Below are positions 9,465 to 24,502 of a stretch of DNA of 45,900 bases, piece after piece. Position numbers and translations under genes: made by a program. The notes beneath the pieces were generated by a model. That model ran no database searches and was not told the DNA's origin. It saw nothing but the letters and a program-made list of their open reading frames with translations. How positions within the stretch are numbered: position 1 is the first letter of the stretch; every line of letters begins with the position of its first letter. Source of the DNA: Gammaproteobacteria bacterium (GTDB lineage Bacteria; Pseudomonadota; Gammaproteobacteria; SG8-11). The stretch covers positions 1 to 45,900 of the forward strand of contig JAADIM010000123.1 of NCBI GenBank assembly GCA_013151345.1. Direction: 5' to 3'.

Positions 9465-9559
9465 TGGCTTGTCCTGATATGGGTTGTGTGCTGCAAATGT
9501 AATGCATAAGTTTCAATTTTTGACTTGCATCTTATTAACTTGTTTACAGATATTCTAAT

Positions 9560-9612
9560 AAAACATAGCTTTATAAAACAGAGCTTTATAAAACGTAGCT
9601 TTATAAAATATA
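9560..9612. repeat. 15-bp degenerate tandem repeat (aaaacatagctttat), about 3.5 units
   Basis: Units 9560-9574, 9575-9589 and 9590-9604, plus a partial unit running into the hslU 3' end. Confidence 0.85.
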
Positions 9613-10974
9613 GCGACTCAAATCTTCATCTTTCACAAGCTCGTTTAAATGATCGTCAACATAGCTTGCATCAACTTCGATGCTCTCATTGTTGCGATCA
9701 GCCGCTTCGAATGAAAGCGTTTCTAATAAACGCTCCATCACAGTGTACAAACGTCTGGCACCGATGTTTTCGGTTGATTCGTTAACTTGCCAGGCGACTT
9801 GCGCAATACGTGAAATACCATTTTCGGAAAAGCTTAACGTCACCCCTTCAGTAGCGAGCAATGCAGAATACTGTTGCGTTAATGACGCATCGGGTTCTGT
9901 TAGAATGCGAACGAAATCGTCTACGGTCAACGAACGCAGCTCTACCCGGATAGGTAGACGGCCTTGCAATTCAGGAATTAGGTCAGAGGGTTTGGCCAGG
10001 TGAAATGCACCGGATGCTATGAACAGGATATGATCCGTTTTTACAATGCCGTATTTGGTTGATACCGAGCAGCCTTCAACGAGCGGCAACAAATCACGTT
10101 GCACACCTTCACGCGACACATCCGCCCCGGACGTTTCTGAACGTTTACAAATCTTGTCCATTTCATCCAGAAAAACAATTCCATTTTGCTCAACATTTAC
10201 GATTGAACGGCTTTTGATTTCGTCTTCGTTGACTAGTTTTGTAGCTTCTTCCTCGATCAACAGTTTAAACGCTTGTTTTATTTTCAATTTTCGGGTTTTA
10301 GTACGCCCACTGCCCAGGTTCTGGAACATACCCTGCAATTGATTCGTCATTTCCTCCATACCGGGCGGCGCCATTATTTCTACACCGATAGCCGCTGTAT
10401 TGAGTTCAACTTCAATTTCCCTGTCGTCCAATTTGCCTTCACGGAGCATTTTTCGGAATTTTTGCCGAGTAGTTGACACGTCTTCTTTTTCTACATTATT
10501 ATCGCCAGTGTTTTTTTCCTCTGCGTTAAAACCGAACCCAGCCGATCTCGCTGGTGGTATTAATATATCTAGGATGCGCTCTTCTGCGAACTGCTCAGCC
10601 TGCAAATGTACTTTTTTAACCTCACGTTCTCTTGTTAGCTTAATTGAGATATCTGCAAGATCGCGTACAATCGAATCAACGTCACGACCAACATAACCCA
10701 CTTCAGTAAACTTTGTTGCTTCCACTTTAATAAAGGGTGAGTCAGCTAACTTGGCCAAGCGGCGTGCAATTTCGGTTTTACCAACGCCGGTGGGGCCGAT
10801 CATTAGGATATTTTTTGGGGTAATTTCATTTCGCAGTTCTTCATCAACCATACTGCGGCGCCAACGATTACGTAGTGCGATGGCGACGGCTCTTTTTGCA
10901 TTTTCCTGTCCAATAATATGCTTGTCCAATTCCTGAACAATTTCTCGCGGTGTCATGGGTGTCGTATCTGTCAT
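9601..10974 (-). CDS. hslU: ATP-dependent protease ATPase subunit HslU
   Basis: [34 protein letters not shown]; Walker [19 protein letters not shown]-terminus EDLSRYIL. Confidence 0.97.
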
Positions 10975-11526: not shown

Positions 11527-11598
11527 AAGTTAACTTCCTAATTTTGTTGCAAAAAAAAACATATTATTTACCATATTGCCTGCATCGCTATGCTAACT

Positions 11599-11650
11599 AT
11601 ATGCATTGCTTATATGCATTGCTTATATGCATTGCTTATATGCGTTACTT
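11599..11650. repeat. 13-bp tandem repeat (atatgcattgctt) x4
   Basis: Three perfect units and one with two mismatches between hslV and xerC. Confidence 0.9.
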
Positions 11651-11786
11651 ACTGGCATAGCATCGAGCTGAGATTGTACACCATCCCAACAACTTATAAA
11701 GCAAACCCGCCCGCAGGGTGCAAAGGGTGCAAAAGCTGAAATGCGGGCAAAACTACAAAATTCAAGGTGAAATAACCTGACCCGCA

Positions 11787-18053: not shown

Positions 18054-20054
18054 ATGGAAACAACCTATCTACCCCCTGCTTTAGGCATCTTAGGTCTCGT
18101 CGTCGCATTCATCATCTATGGTCGCATTAAAGCCATGCCCGCTGGTGAAGGGCTAATACTGGAAATAGCGGAAGCCATTCATCTAGGTGCTATGGTTTTC
18201 ATGAAACGAGAATATTCCATTCTCGTCCCGTTTGCTGCCGTGTTAGCTGTTTTGCTCTATGTATTCCTCGGCGCCCAAACAACGATCGCATTTGTCGCTG
18301 GCGCATTCTGTTCTGGCATTGCTGGTTATATCGGCATGTTCACCGCAACAAAGGCAAATGTACGCACAACAACCGCAGCGCATACACAGGGAGCCGCGGC
18401 TGCATTAACCACCGCTTTTTTTGGTGGCTCTGTAATGGGGTTAACTATTGCAGCCGTCGGATTACTCGGATTAGGCACCTTATATATGTTTTTTGGTGGC
18501 GACCCCGAAACCGCCCATGCCATTCACGGCTTCGGCATGGGTGCGTCAGTTGTCGCTTTATTTTCTCGTGTTGGCGGCGGCATTTTTACTAAAAGTGCTG
18601 ATGTGGGTGCCGACCTGGTCGGTAAAATTGAAGCGGGCATTCCTGAAGATGACCCACGCAACCCGGGTGTGATTGCGGATAACGTCGGCGATAACGTTGG
18701 TGATGTCGCAGGTATGGGCTCAGATATTTTTGAGTCCTATTGTGGCTCAATCATCGCCACCATCGCCATCGCATCCACGGTAGGCGCGGCCGCTATCGCC
18801 ACATTGGGAGAACGCAGTGACTTGATGTTTTTACCTTTAGGCCTGGCTTCCGTCGGCCTTATCTGCTCTATACTCGGCATTTTGCTGGTTGTCGTATTTT
18901 CTGCAAAAACACCCGAAGTCGCACTAAGAATAGGCACTATAGGTGCAGCGGTGTTATTTATTACCTCCTCATACTTTGTAATTACCATCATTGGTATCAG
19001 CGTAAATGTCTGGGGCGCAGTGGTGGTCGGCGCAGTGGGTGGCATCATTATTGGCCTAGTGACTGAATATTACACCGCCGGCAAACCAATACGCGATCTC
19101 GCCAAAGCGGGGGAAACAGGTCCTGCAACCGTTATGATCAGTGGTCTTGCGCTAGGCATGCAATCTGTTGTGGTCCCGGTTCTTACTATATGCGCTATCA
19201 TATTCATATCAGACCAACTTGTTGGTCTTTATGGCGTGGGTATCGCGGCGGTCGGTATGTTGGCAACGGTGGGTATCACTATGGCCATCGATGCTTACGG
19301 CCCGGTAGCCGATAATGCAGGTGGCATTGCTGAAATGGCTGGACTGGGCGAGGACACCCGTAAGATTACCGATTCGCTCGACGAACTCGGCAATACAACA
19401 GCGGCAATTGGCAAAGGCTTTGCGATCGGCGCAGCGGCATTGGCAGCGTTAGCGATTATTACCGCGTTCGTTGAAACTGTTTCCGCCCATAACGCGGATT
19501 TTTCCCTGGCACTCAATCACCCTCCAGTACTGGTCGGTTTATTTATTGGTGGCATATTTCCTTTTCTTGTCGCTTCTCTTACCATGACCGCAGTTGGCGA
19601 CGCTGCATTTGAAATGATCCAGGAAATTCGCCGTCAATTCCGCGAGATACCCGGATTGCTAGAAGGCACTGCAAAGCCGGATAATGCACGTTGCATTGAT
19701 ATCGCCACCCGGGCAGCACTGAAAAAAATGGTATTGCCCGGCGTACTCGCTGTTTCAGCCCCGGTGGTCGTCGGATTCGGTATTAGCGCATCGGCGTTGG
19801 GCGGCATGTTAGGTGGCGCACTATTGGGTTGTGTATTATTAGCAATCACTATGGCTAACGCCGGCGGCGCCTGGGACAATGCGAAAAAGTATGTGGAAAA
19901 AGGCAACCTCGGCGGCAAGGGGTCAGACACGCATACTGCAGTGGTAGTAGGTGATACCGTAGGCGACCCCTTCAAGGATACATCAGGCCCCTCTATGAAT
20001 ATTCTTATTAATGTAATGGCGATTGTAAGTTTGGTTATTGCGCCTCTTCTTTGA
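18054..20054 (+). CDS. hppA: Membrane-bound ion-pumping pyrophosphatase, K+-dependent type
   Basis: [65 protein letters not shown] (Ala/Gly signature); [32 protein letters not shown]. Confidence 0.97.
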
Positions 20055-20065
20055 AGAAACATCAT

Positions 20066-20137
20066 TTCACCGCAAAGACGCAAAGAAACAATCTTTTAAA
20101 TTATAAACCTTTGCGTACTTCGCGTCTTTGCGGTGAA
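20066..20137. terminator. Inverted repeat between convergent hppA and pfp, candidate bidirectional terminator/repeat
   Basis: ttcaccgcaaagacgc (20066-20081) and gcgtctttgcggtgaa (20122-20137) form a perfect 16-bp dyad. Confidence 0.7.
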
Positions 20138-20144
20138 TTCATAC

Positions 20145-21407
20145 TTAAATCGTAAACTCATCTTTCAGCTTCTTCGGCACTGCAACGTTCTTCAGCACCA
20201 CATACTGCGGTAAACCATTTTTATACGGCGGATAATCTTCGCCTTTGATTAACGGCAGTAGATAAGTGCGACAACGTTCTGTGATACCCATACCATCTTT
20301 GCTAATGTAATTCCTTGGCATCATTTTCTCTACATTGGCAACCGCTGACAGTTTTGCGACACCCACTGTCCATTTATAAGGTTTATCTGATTTGCGAACA
20401 ATCGTAGGCATAACAGCATTTTGCCCTTTCAACGCCAGCTGAACGGCCGCCTTACCTAATGCATAGGCTTGTTCAACATCTGTTTTAGACGCAATATGCC
20501 GCGCCGCGCGCTGCAAATAGTCCGCTACCGCCCAATGATATTTATACCCCAGTTCATCTTTAATAAGTTGCGCGACAACCGGCGCCACGCCACCCAACTG
20601 GGCGTGACCAAAGGAGTCTTTGCCACCCGCTTCAGCGAGAAACTGACCTTCAGGGTTCTTGATACCTTCAGACACAACTATTGCGCAGTAGCCATATTTT
20701 TTAACACATTCATCAACCCGGTTTAAAAAAGCCAGCCGATCAAACGTAATCTCTGGAAACAAAATAATATGTGGCGCGTCACCCTCATTCTCAGCCGCCA
20801 GGCCACCTGCCGCTGCAATCCAGCCTGCATGACGGCCCATCACTTCCATGACGAATATCTTTGTGGACGTTTTAGCCATTGAGGCCACATCAAACGCTGC
20901 TTCTCTAATTGAAACAGCGACATATTTAGCAACAGAACCAAATCCCGGGCAATTATCGGTAATAGGTAAATCATTATCGACTGTTTTGGGTATACCCACA
21001 CACGTTATGGGATAACCCAATTTCGCCCCTATTTGGGAAACCTTATTCGATGTGTCTTGAGAATCACCACCGCCATTGTAAAAAAAATAACCAATGTCGT
21101 GGGCCTTGAATACTTCTATCAAACGCTCATATTGAGCCCTGTTTTCTTCTAGCCCTTTCAATTTATATCGACACGAACCAAATGCACCGGAAGGCGTATG
21201 GCGTAACGCGGCAATTGATTTTGCGGATTCCTTACTGGTATCAATCAAGTCTTCAGTTAAAGCCCCAATAATGCCATTTCGGCCAGCATATACTTTTCCA
21301 ATCTTATTCTTATGTTTTCGCGCAGTCTCGATAACCCCACACGCCGACGCATTTATTACGGCGGTAACACCCCCAGACTGGGCATAAAAAGCATTTCTCT
21401 TAGTCAT
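20145..21407 (-). CDS. pfp: Pyrophosphate-dependent 6-phosphofructokinase
   Basis: YNGGGDSQDTSNKVS; PKTVDNDLPITDNCPGFGSVAKY; VMEVMGRHAGWIAAAGGLA. Confidence 0.93.
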   Translation of the reverse strand: MTKRNAFYAQSGGVTAVINASACGVIETARKHKNKIGKVYAGRNGIIGALTEDLIDTSKESAKSIAALRHTPSGAFGSCRYKLKGLEENRAQYERLIEVFKAHDIGYFFYNGGGDSQDTSNKVSQIGAKLGYPITCVGIPKTVDNDLPITDNCPGFGSVAKYVAVSIREAAFDVASMAKTSTKIFVMEVMGRHAGWIAAAGGLAAENEGDAPHIILFPEITFDRLAFLNRVDECVKKYGYCAIVVSEGIKNPEGQFLAEAGGKDSFGHAQLGGVAPVVAQLIKDELGYKYHWAVADYLQRAARHIASKTDVEQAYALGKAAVQLALKGQNAVMPTIVRKSDKPYKWTVGVAKLSAVANVEKMMPRNYISKDGMGITERCRTYLLPLIKGEDYPPYKNGLPQYVVLKNVAVPKKLKDEFTI

Positions 21408-21433
21408 TAAGAACTCCTCCCTTCAACAAATTT

Positions 21434-21493
21434 TTCAAGAACCATGTGTTCCAGAACCATGCATTCAAAAATAATATATTCCAGAACAATTAT
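21434..21493. repeat. 15-bp degenerate tandem repeat (ttccagaaccatgca-like) x4
   Basis: ttcaagaaccatgtg / ttccagaaccatgca / ttcaaaaataatata / ttccagaacaattat upstream of pfp. Confidence 0.7.
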
Positions 21494-22104
21494 TTATACA
21501 TAAAAAATATTAATACATCACAAAAAACCAAAGTATGTCTTCACTCGAATATCTTCGTGCAGTCTAGTGTAACGAAAACCTCCAGCCATCCTGTTGTATC
21601 ATTGATGTTTGCAACAAGATAAGGCTATTATGTTGCCGGACTACAAACTAAGATTTTTAACAACAAAAAGCAAAACAAAAACCAAAATTTTCTAACACAA
21701 GTGATATAGCTGTACTAATATTGATTAAACATCGCATCGAGTGTGATAATTAGCTTTTTATCAGGGCTGTAAGCTAATCATATAGTTGCGAATTAGAATA
21801 AAGAGTTAGTAATAACAGATAATAACGGTCACAGGCATTAAAAAATTATTTGGCGTAAACAATCTTTGTCATCGGATCAATAAACGATTGATAGATTCTG
21901 ATTGACAAATTCTGATCGATAAACGTTCAATATTTTTGGCAACTCAAATTACCAATTCATTGATATTTAGCTATTATCAATGCTATATGCCTTTTACGTG
22001 ATAAAAGTACATGATATAAGAAGGGGTGGCGTTTATGCCGTTTAAAGCTAACGCCAAAAAACACAAACAAAATAAAGTGATTACGATATGAGTGAGGAAA
22101 CAAT

Positions 22105-23322
22105 ATGAGAATCGTACTACTCGGCGCACCAGGCTCAGGCAAAGGAACCCAGGCAAAACGTCTGGTTGAAAAATATAATGTGCCTCAAATTTCGACGGGC
22201 GATTTACTGCGGGCTGCAGTACAAGAGAATACTGAATTAGGCATACAAGCTAAAGCAGCTATCGATGCAGGACAATTTGTTTCAGACTCCATCGTACTTG
22301 CAATGATAGAAGAACGCTTAAAAAGCGCCGATACAGATAGCGGCTTCATTCTAGATGGCTTCCCTCGCAACCTCCTCCAGGCAGAAGAACTCAATACAAT
22401 GCTGGACGAGTTGAACAAACCAATGCAGGCTGCTATTTTGATCGCGGTTGATTTCGATGTCATTATTGAAAGAACAACCGGACGTCGTACCTGTGAGTCT
22501 TGCGGACAATTGTATAATATTTATACTAACCCGTCAAAACTAGAAGACCAGTGTGATCACTGTGGCGGCAATCTACATCATCGCTCAGATGATAATGAAG
22601 AAACGATTAGCAACCGCCTAAGAATTTACGAAGCCCAAACCACACCTCTTATAGCCTATTACAGAAACAAGAACATGCTTCGAACAGTCCAGGGAGTTGG
22701 CGACGTATCGGAAATATTTGATGAGCTGTGTAATGTCGTTGATGAATTACCGGAAGAAGCCATTGAAACCATGTTTACTGCGCCCGACGTGGATCTACCT
22801 GATACACCAAGGCCGGTATACCAGGAACCAGATGACGATGACGACGACGATGTGGTAGCAGCAGAAACAGAAGATGAAGAAGATGAAGAGAATGAAGAGA
22901 ATGAAGAAGAGATAAAAGAGGAAGTATCTACACCTGCGCCCGTTAAGAAGAAAACAACTAAAAAGGCGGCTAAGAAAAAGACAGCCAAGAAAACAGCAGC
23001 TAAAAAGACGACCTCAAAGAAAACAGCTAAAAAGTCGGCGGTCAAAAAGAAAGCAGTCAAGAAAAAGACTAAAAAAGCCACTACGAAAAAAGCGGTTAAG
23101 AAAAAAGCGATAAAGAAGAAAGTCGCCAAGAAAAAGGCAGCCAAAAAGACGAACAAGAAAAAAGTGACTAAGAAGAAAGCAGCTAAAAAAACCACTACGA
23201 AAAAAACGACTAAGAAAAAAGCAGCGAAGAAAAAAGTAGCAAAGAAGAAAGCGGCTAAGAAAAAAGTGACTAAAAAGAAAACCAAGAAAAAAGCAGCTAA
23301 AAAGACAATCAAAAAGCGCTAA
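22105..23322 (+). CDS. adk: Adenylate kinase with Cys4 zinc-type LID, acidic linker and Lys/Ala/Thr-rich histone-H1-like C-terminal tail
   Basis: MRIVLLGAPGSGKGTQAKRL; GFILDGFPR; CESC...CDHC LID; then DDDDDDDVVAAETEDEEDEENEENEEE and VKKKTTKKAAKKKTAKK...KKAAKKTIKKR in one uninterrupted frame. Confidence 0.95.
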   Translation: MRIVLLGAPGSGKGTQAKRLVEKYNVPQISTGDLLRAAVQENTELGIQAKAAIDAGQFVSDSIVLAMIEERLKSADTDSGFILDGFPRNLLQAEELNTMLDELNKPMQAAILIAVDFDVIIERTTGRRTCESCGQLYNIYTNPSKLEDQCDHCGGNLHHRSDDNEETISNRLRIYEAQTTPLIAYYRNKNMLRTVQGVGDVSEIFDELCNVVDELPEEAIETMFTAPDVDLPDTPRPVYQEPDDDDDDDVVAAETEDEEDEENEENEEEIKEEVSTPAPVKKKTTKKAAKKKTAKKTAAKKTTSKKTAKKSAVKKKAVKKKTKKATTKKAVKKKAIKKKVAKKKAAKKTNKKKVTKKKAAKKTTTKKTTKKKAAKKKVAKKKAAKKKVTKKKTKKKAAKKTIKKR

Positions 23323-23331
23323 ACTTCTATT

Positions 23332-23364
23332 TATATCCCCTGACTACATCATTCAGGGGATATA
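23332..23364. terminator. Stem-loop downstream of adk
   Basis: tatatcccctga / tcaggggatata perfect 12-bp stem, 9-nt loop. Confidence 0.65.
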
Positions 23365-23467
23365 ACTTCTGCTTCTATCCAATTAGCGAGACTACACAGG
23401 AATTCACTCCATTTCCTGTACTGCGACGAGCATGTCATTTATCATGGCATGTACTTTGTAGTACTGA

Positions 23468-24502
<1,035 letters not shown>

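Follow-up and report, generated by a model that had tools for sequence, protein, structure and literature searches.

The adenylate kinase (Adk) gene of a gammaproteobacterial contig encodes an enzyme that continues into a long, lysine-rich tail resembling that of histone H1. This fusion is real, conserved, and convergently evolved, and the Adk is most likely anchored to the nucleoid, judging from the other proteins that carry such tails. The gene lies within the 45,900-nucleotide stretch of DNA that was analysed as a whole, hereafter the window, and occupies an uninterrupted frame of 405 codons at 22105-23322 on the plus strand. Its parts are as follows.

22105..22746 (+): Adk core, residues 1-214, from Pfam PF00406 and PF05191 and NCBIfam NF001380
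22747..22830 (+): linker, residues 215-242, with low AlphaFold2 confidence from residue 223
22831..22932 (+): acidic block, residues 243-276, from residue counts
22945..23319 (+): H1-like Lys/Ala/Thr/Val tail, residues 281-405, from composition, repeats, and AlphaFold2
23320-23322 (+): stop codon

The original prediction, made from the letters of the DNA, had placed an acidic block and a K/A/T/V tail after an Adk core at 22105-23322, and its coordinates and description are correct. Its complete Adk core (to about residue 215) running on in one frame is borne out by the frame itself and by the Pfam and NCBIfam matches.

Residues 1-214 are a complete zinc-lid Adk whose activity is predicted from its residues. 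The protein matches the Pfam models ADK (PF00406; E 1.5e-53, 181 bits, cut-off 26.8) and ADK_lid (PF05191; 7.6e-13, 48.5 bits, cut-off 26.6), and residues 1-214 match the NCBIfam Adk equivalog NF001380 at 289 bits (cut-off 251). The closest PDB structures to the core are also Adks, for example 5g3y, 1p3j, 1s3g, and 1zin. As in other zinc-lid bacterial Adks (PF00406 with PF05191; NF001380), the whole core is present, with its P-loop (GAPGSGKGT), AMP-binding residues (T31, R36, D84, R88), and Cys4 zinc-type lid (C130, C133, C150, C153), along with R123, R160, and R171. The NF001380 model has 216 positions, to which the window protein adds a 190-residue extension. AlphaFold2 models the core confidently, with block mean pLDDT values of 78-93, mostly 80-93. 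The catalytic and substrate-binding residues are intact, and the 22 columns inspected are identical across 28 tailed Adks that are the sole copy in their genomes, the window protein included. One Adk was found in a genome of the same genus (the genus-mate) and one in the window's genome, which is 68.5% complete and could hide a second in its missing part.

The 125 residues of the tail comprise 69 K, 23 A, 20 T, and 7 V with zero D/E, giving a net charge of +70. Outside the gene, no open stretch of 125 residues in any of the six frames of the window contains more than 17 lysines, and the lysine-repeat DNA pattern occurs eight times in the window's genome as opposed to zero times for a reversed control. 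The pLDDT is below 50 over practically all of residues 223-405, which are predicted to be disordered. The segment is H1-like in being long, disordered by prediction, K/A-rich, and D/E-poor; no H1-like Pfam model matched the protein. The composition and charge resemble those of chlamydial Hc1/Hc2 and the C-terminal domain of eukaryotic linker histones, a likeness of composition only, and the window protein differs from these in having no globular winged-helix domain. Internally the tail consists of imperfect in-frame repeats, with mismatches of 55/64/117 by codon position. Elsewhere in the window, at 9558-9614 and 11598-11658, there are short tandem repeats, 15-base ATAAAACATAGCTTT and 13-base TATATGCATTGCT.

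Between core and tail, the acidic block carries D/E at 22 of its 34 positions for a net charge of -21. The most acidic 30-residue stretch has 21 D/E in the window protein, 10 in the genus-mate, and 6-7 in the family, with a median of 6 across 114 tailed proteins. The highest value outside the window is 13, and two of the cases at that value lie in apparently frameshifted tails. A block this strong is particular to the window's genome and not to the architecture. Its proposed role as an autoinhibitory counter-charge belonging to the architecture is not upheld by these counts, and the block is ruled out as a conserved architectural part.

The tail itself is widely shared. The genus-mate, whose core is 85% identical to that of the window protein, is tailed; so are the Adks of three members of the family and some 110 further ones from Gammaproteobacteria, their tails spanning 61-325 residues. 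Close relatives ending at about residue 220 would have spoken against the fusion, and the genus-mate and family members instead bear out its conservation. Tailed Adks occur in a Sedimenticola, a Sulfuricaulis, Chromatiaceae and Thiotrichaceae MAGs, and the symbionts of Lamellibrachia and Lucinoma. Untailed Adks occur in Ectothiorhodospira, Thioalkalivibrio, Halothiobacillus, Woeseiaceae, Steroidobacteraceae, and Nitrospirae relatives; untailed relatives end at ~214-227 with almost nothing intermediate. Tail length is bimodal, with 53 sequences below 10 residues, 114 over 60, and only two between, one of 13 residues and one of 34 (L035) that runs off its contig. Sampling 387 genomes evenly across the class gave roughly 80 whose Adk open frame spans at least 300 residues; this is an upper bound, as upstream codons are counted in the frame and the Adk of one of these genomes (G240) turned out to have no tail. 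Tail state changes five times on the core tree compared to 36.8 times in shuffles, hence the tail is old, shared by one principal group with a small number of independent gains or losses besides.

Because repeats of this kind are difficult to assemble, an assembly or frameshift artefact that fused adk to an unrelated lysine-rich gene had a fair prior, although no supporting evidence for this was found. The same fusion recurs in the genus-mate, in family members, and at more than 100 other loci, including the single-contig genomes G023, G041, G130, G133, and G140. Assembly error, which the original prediction had named as a possible undoing of the tail, is rejected on this recurrence in independent genomes and is scarcely credible.

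Composition is kept across relatives while the sequence drifts. The pooled extension of the 114 tailed proteins is 35% K, 23% A, 8% V, 7% T, and 6% P with D+E below 5%, and its median net charge is +57.5. In L013/L048, L120, L150, L219, and L221 the K-rich part is followed by a mixed-charge, helical-looking end; these non-H1-like segments (L013, L120, L150, L219, and L221) count against the reading of the tail as an H1-like anchor.

The combination of Adk with a K/A tail is already recorded in a curated family, PRK13808 (NF010381), whose long Adks are likewise followed by a Lys/Ala-rich tail, of ~90-115 residues (L151-L157). This is a different, shorter Adk subfamily. The window protein scores 171.8 bits against its cut-off of 426 and its membership is rejected; the genomes of the window's class all fall short of that cut-off. 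PRK13808 Adks with K/A tails were found in one family, and, going by the membership of this model, its carriers are presumably Alphaproteobacteria. Their fusion is taken as independent of the gammaproteobacterial one and convergent with it. The expectation that the fusion is not a standard Adk architecture thus holds only in part, as it is widespread in a portion of the Gammaproteobacteria and has this curated, convergent counterpart. No relevant account of a lysine-rich or H1-like-tailed adenylate kinase was found in the open-licence literature.

A subset of tailed Adks appears to have lost catalysis. Twelve strict catalytic columns are intact in all 28 sole-copy tailed Adks. In genomes with a second Adk, 12 of 47 tailed copies have lost P-loop or substrate-binding residues and kept the tail (L018, L215, L016, L122, L025, L130, L125, L228, L229, L218, L220, L233). 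The residues lost are K13, G14, and T15 of the P-loop and R36, D84, and R88 of the substrate sites. The difference from the sole copies (12/47 vs. 0/28) gives a Fisher p of 0.0026 when shared ancestry is ignored, and the single and double Adk calls are limited by genome completeness. On the tree, degradation requires seven changes, at least four of them forced by well-supported branches, with the exact placement unsure on long branches. The 15 second Adks examined are untailed, intact, and 213-217 residues long; D163E is normal among them and no copy was scored as degraded on D163E alone. The 12 degraded copies are candidate tailed pseudo-adenylate-kinases, always found in genomes with a second Adk. 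As the tail is kept in these copies, it seems to be of use even where, judged from the residues, catalysis is gone. That it outlasts active-site residues in several lineages points to another role, most probably at the chromosome.

These observations also bear on whether the tail is a functionless, low-complexity extension grown by neutral slippage. The tails are indeed repetitive and variable in length, and in a small number of copies (L034/L137, L122, and perhaps L148) the frame seems to have shifted within the lysine repeat, giving for example QEKGGEEKG in place of a KK-rich stretch. Such copies could reflect slippage, phase variation, or assembly error, comparable to the rearrangement-prone repeat of AlgP. 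However, neutral growth sits poorly with tails that are kept long across many families, are bimodal in length, outlast lost catalytic residues, and were gained independently in Alphaproteobacteria. Internal-repeat mismatches in 112 tails number 6838/7380/9438 by codon position, an overall third-position excess that is modest, and in none of the 112 is the best repeat out of frame. The third-position excess and in-frame repeats favour selection on protein composition over neutral repeat growth, which is accordingly very improbable.

Other carriers of the tail type were sought with a KKxxKKxxKK DNA-pattern scan of the window's genome and ten relatives. Convincing carriers other than Adk were found in three of the 11 genomes (G000, G001, and G042), a sample rather than a census as the strict pattern misses many proline-containing tails, including the Adk tails of six scanned genomes. 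In the window's genome the pattern matches Adk, topoisomerase I, and a further protein in which the lysine-rich part is no more than a short patch. The genus-mate has a tailed topoisomerase I and a free 103-residue H1-like protein. G042 has a tailed HU (PF00216), DksA (PF21157), a ParB_N-like protein with a Pfam score just below the cut-off, and a free H1-like protein. The DksA (L212, contig G042:C121, minus strand, frame from 1176 of the reverse complement) bears a ~120-residue Lys/Ala/Thr tail at its N-terminus, which scores slightly under the cut-off of Pfam HC2 (Chlamydia H1-like). The lysine-repeat tail of the HU-family DNA-binding protein (L210:1559-2083) is also N-terminal. The small free H1-like proteins (L213 on G001:C171 and L209 on G042:C34) consist almost wholly of KKKxA repeats, and that of L213 has no Pfam match. 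Nearly all of the carriers found act on DNA or RNA polymerase, which lends indirect support to the tethering to nucleic acid that was originally proposed.

Similar tails have been studied in other systems. AlgP (AlgR3) and PhaF of Pseudomonas likewise have a disordered, H1-like Lys/Ala/Pro tail at the C-terminus, but their N-terminal parts are unrelated to Adk and their repeats are KPAA as opposed to KKKAA/KKTV here. These tails bind DNA, or are thought to, and position granules (PMC9239181, PMC3574117). HupB/MDP1 and the lysine-repeat TopA of Actinobacteria similarly combine a nucleoid-associated protein or enzyme with a C-terminal lysine-repeat tail. The HupB tail is reported to be indispensable (PMC5676037) and the TopA repeats to give processivity (PMC7398561). 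The carrier here differs in that it balances nucleotides and is not known to act on DNA. The tail is best read as a nucleic-acid anchor, because its type is shared with TopA, HU, DksA, ParB-like, and free H1-like proteins, and because DNA roles have been published for the tails of HupB, TopA, AlgP, and PhaF.

Since disordered, lysine-rich tails of other systems bind RNA, this one might likewise bind RNA, ribosomes, or RNA polymerase and not DNA, placing Adk where nucleotide turnover is high, and the DksA of G042 bears the same tail type. The carriers found are, however, mostly DNA proteins (TopA, HU, ParB-like, and free H1-like), and we consider this rather unlikely as the main explanation. 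A polycation would bind RNA, ribosomes, or polyphosphate (polyP) too, which counts against reading the tail as a DNA anchor.

The surroundings of the gene point to pyrophosphate (PPi) metabolism. The annotated neighbours are:

18054..20054 (+): H+-translocating pyrophosphatase (H+-PPase), Pfam PF03030, a conserved neighbour
20145..21407 (-): phosphofructokinase family, Pfam PF00365, a conserved divergent neighbour of adk
23483..24502 (+): hemB, delta-aminolevulinic acid dehydratase, Pfam PF00490, a frequent downstream neighbour

PhoU-like and Pit genes also lie near adk on the hemB side. The stretch from 18054 to 24502 corresponds to a conserved pyrophosphate cluster of H+-PPase, phosphofructokinase, soluble pyrophosphatase (Ppa) in many relatives, adk, and often hemB. 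The pairing of adk with phosphofructokinase and H+-PPase, or with Ppa (PF00719), is widespread among both tailed and untailed members. The phosphofructokinase is taken as PPi-dependent because of its conserved pairing with pyrophosphatases, and Adk is the adenylate partner of what looks like a PPi-using metabolism. As tailed and untailed Adks occupy the same locus, the idea that the tail marks a separate gene lineage is rejected; it was appended to an orthologue already in place and does not denote a new gene.

The phosphate and PPi genes flanking adk also suit an alternative in which the tail targets Adk to polyP, recycling polyP-derived phosphate with polyphosphate kinase (PPK; polyP + AMP) and positioned on granules in an AlgP-like manner. 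The H1-like C-terminal domain of AlgP is needed for polyP granule spacing (PMC9239181), and PPK1 or PPK2 is present in 29 of 40 near-complete tailed genomes. The other 11 lack both, and PPK is missing from the annotated common neighbour clusters. PolyP, one of the ligands originally proposed, is disfavoured as a general or universal ligand by these 11 genomes, and polyP targeting is an unlikely account of the tail.

Taken together, we think it fairly probable that the window protein is an active zinc-lid Adk made nucleoid-bound by a disordered, polycationic H1-like tail. The tail would bind DNA electrostatically, in the manner established or supposed for the Lys/Ala tails of HupB, AlgP, PhaF, and TopA, and hold a large part of the cell's Adk on the chromosome. 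There the enzyme would rebalance AMP, ADP, and ATP, in bacteria with a PPi-based metabolism, and may add to DNA compaction. In cells that also have a second, free Adk, catalysis may be lost from the tailed one, which may then remain as a nucleoid protein whose head has the Adk fold. A bolder version, possible but doubtful, is that the main Adk of this clade is a chromosome-bound enzyme-cum-histone that repeatedly becomes a dead nucleoid pseudoenzyme when a second Adk is available, and may sense AMP/ATP and signal energy state to chromosome structure.

Should the tail indeed hold Adk on DNA, adenylate energy charge would be physically linked to the nucleoid, and a core-metabolism enzyme linked in this way is not described in the open-licence papers searched. 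Repeated active-site decay with a kept tail provides a natural separation-of-function series in which the role of the tail can be studied apart from catalysis. More broadly, the H1-like tail of Gammaproteobacteria is a module that can move between proteins, found on Adk, TopA, HU, and DksA, and this helps in finding new nucleoid proteins.
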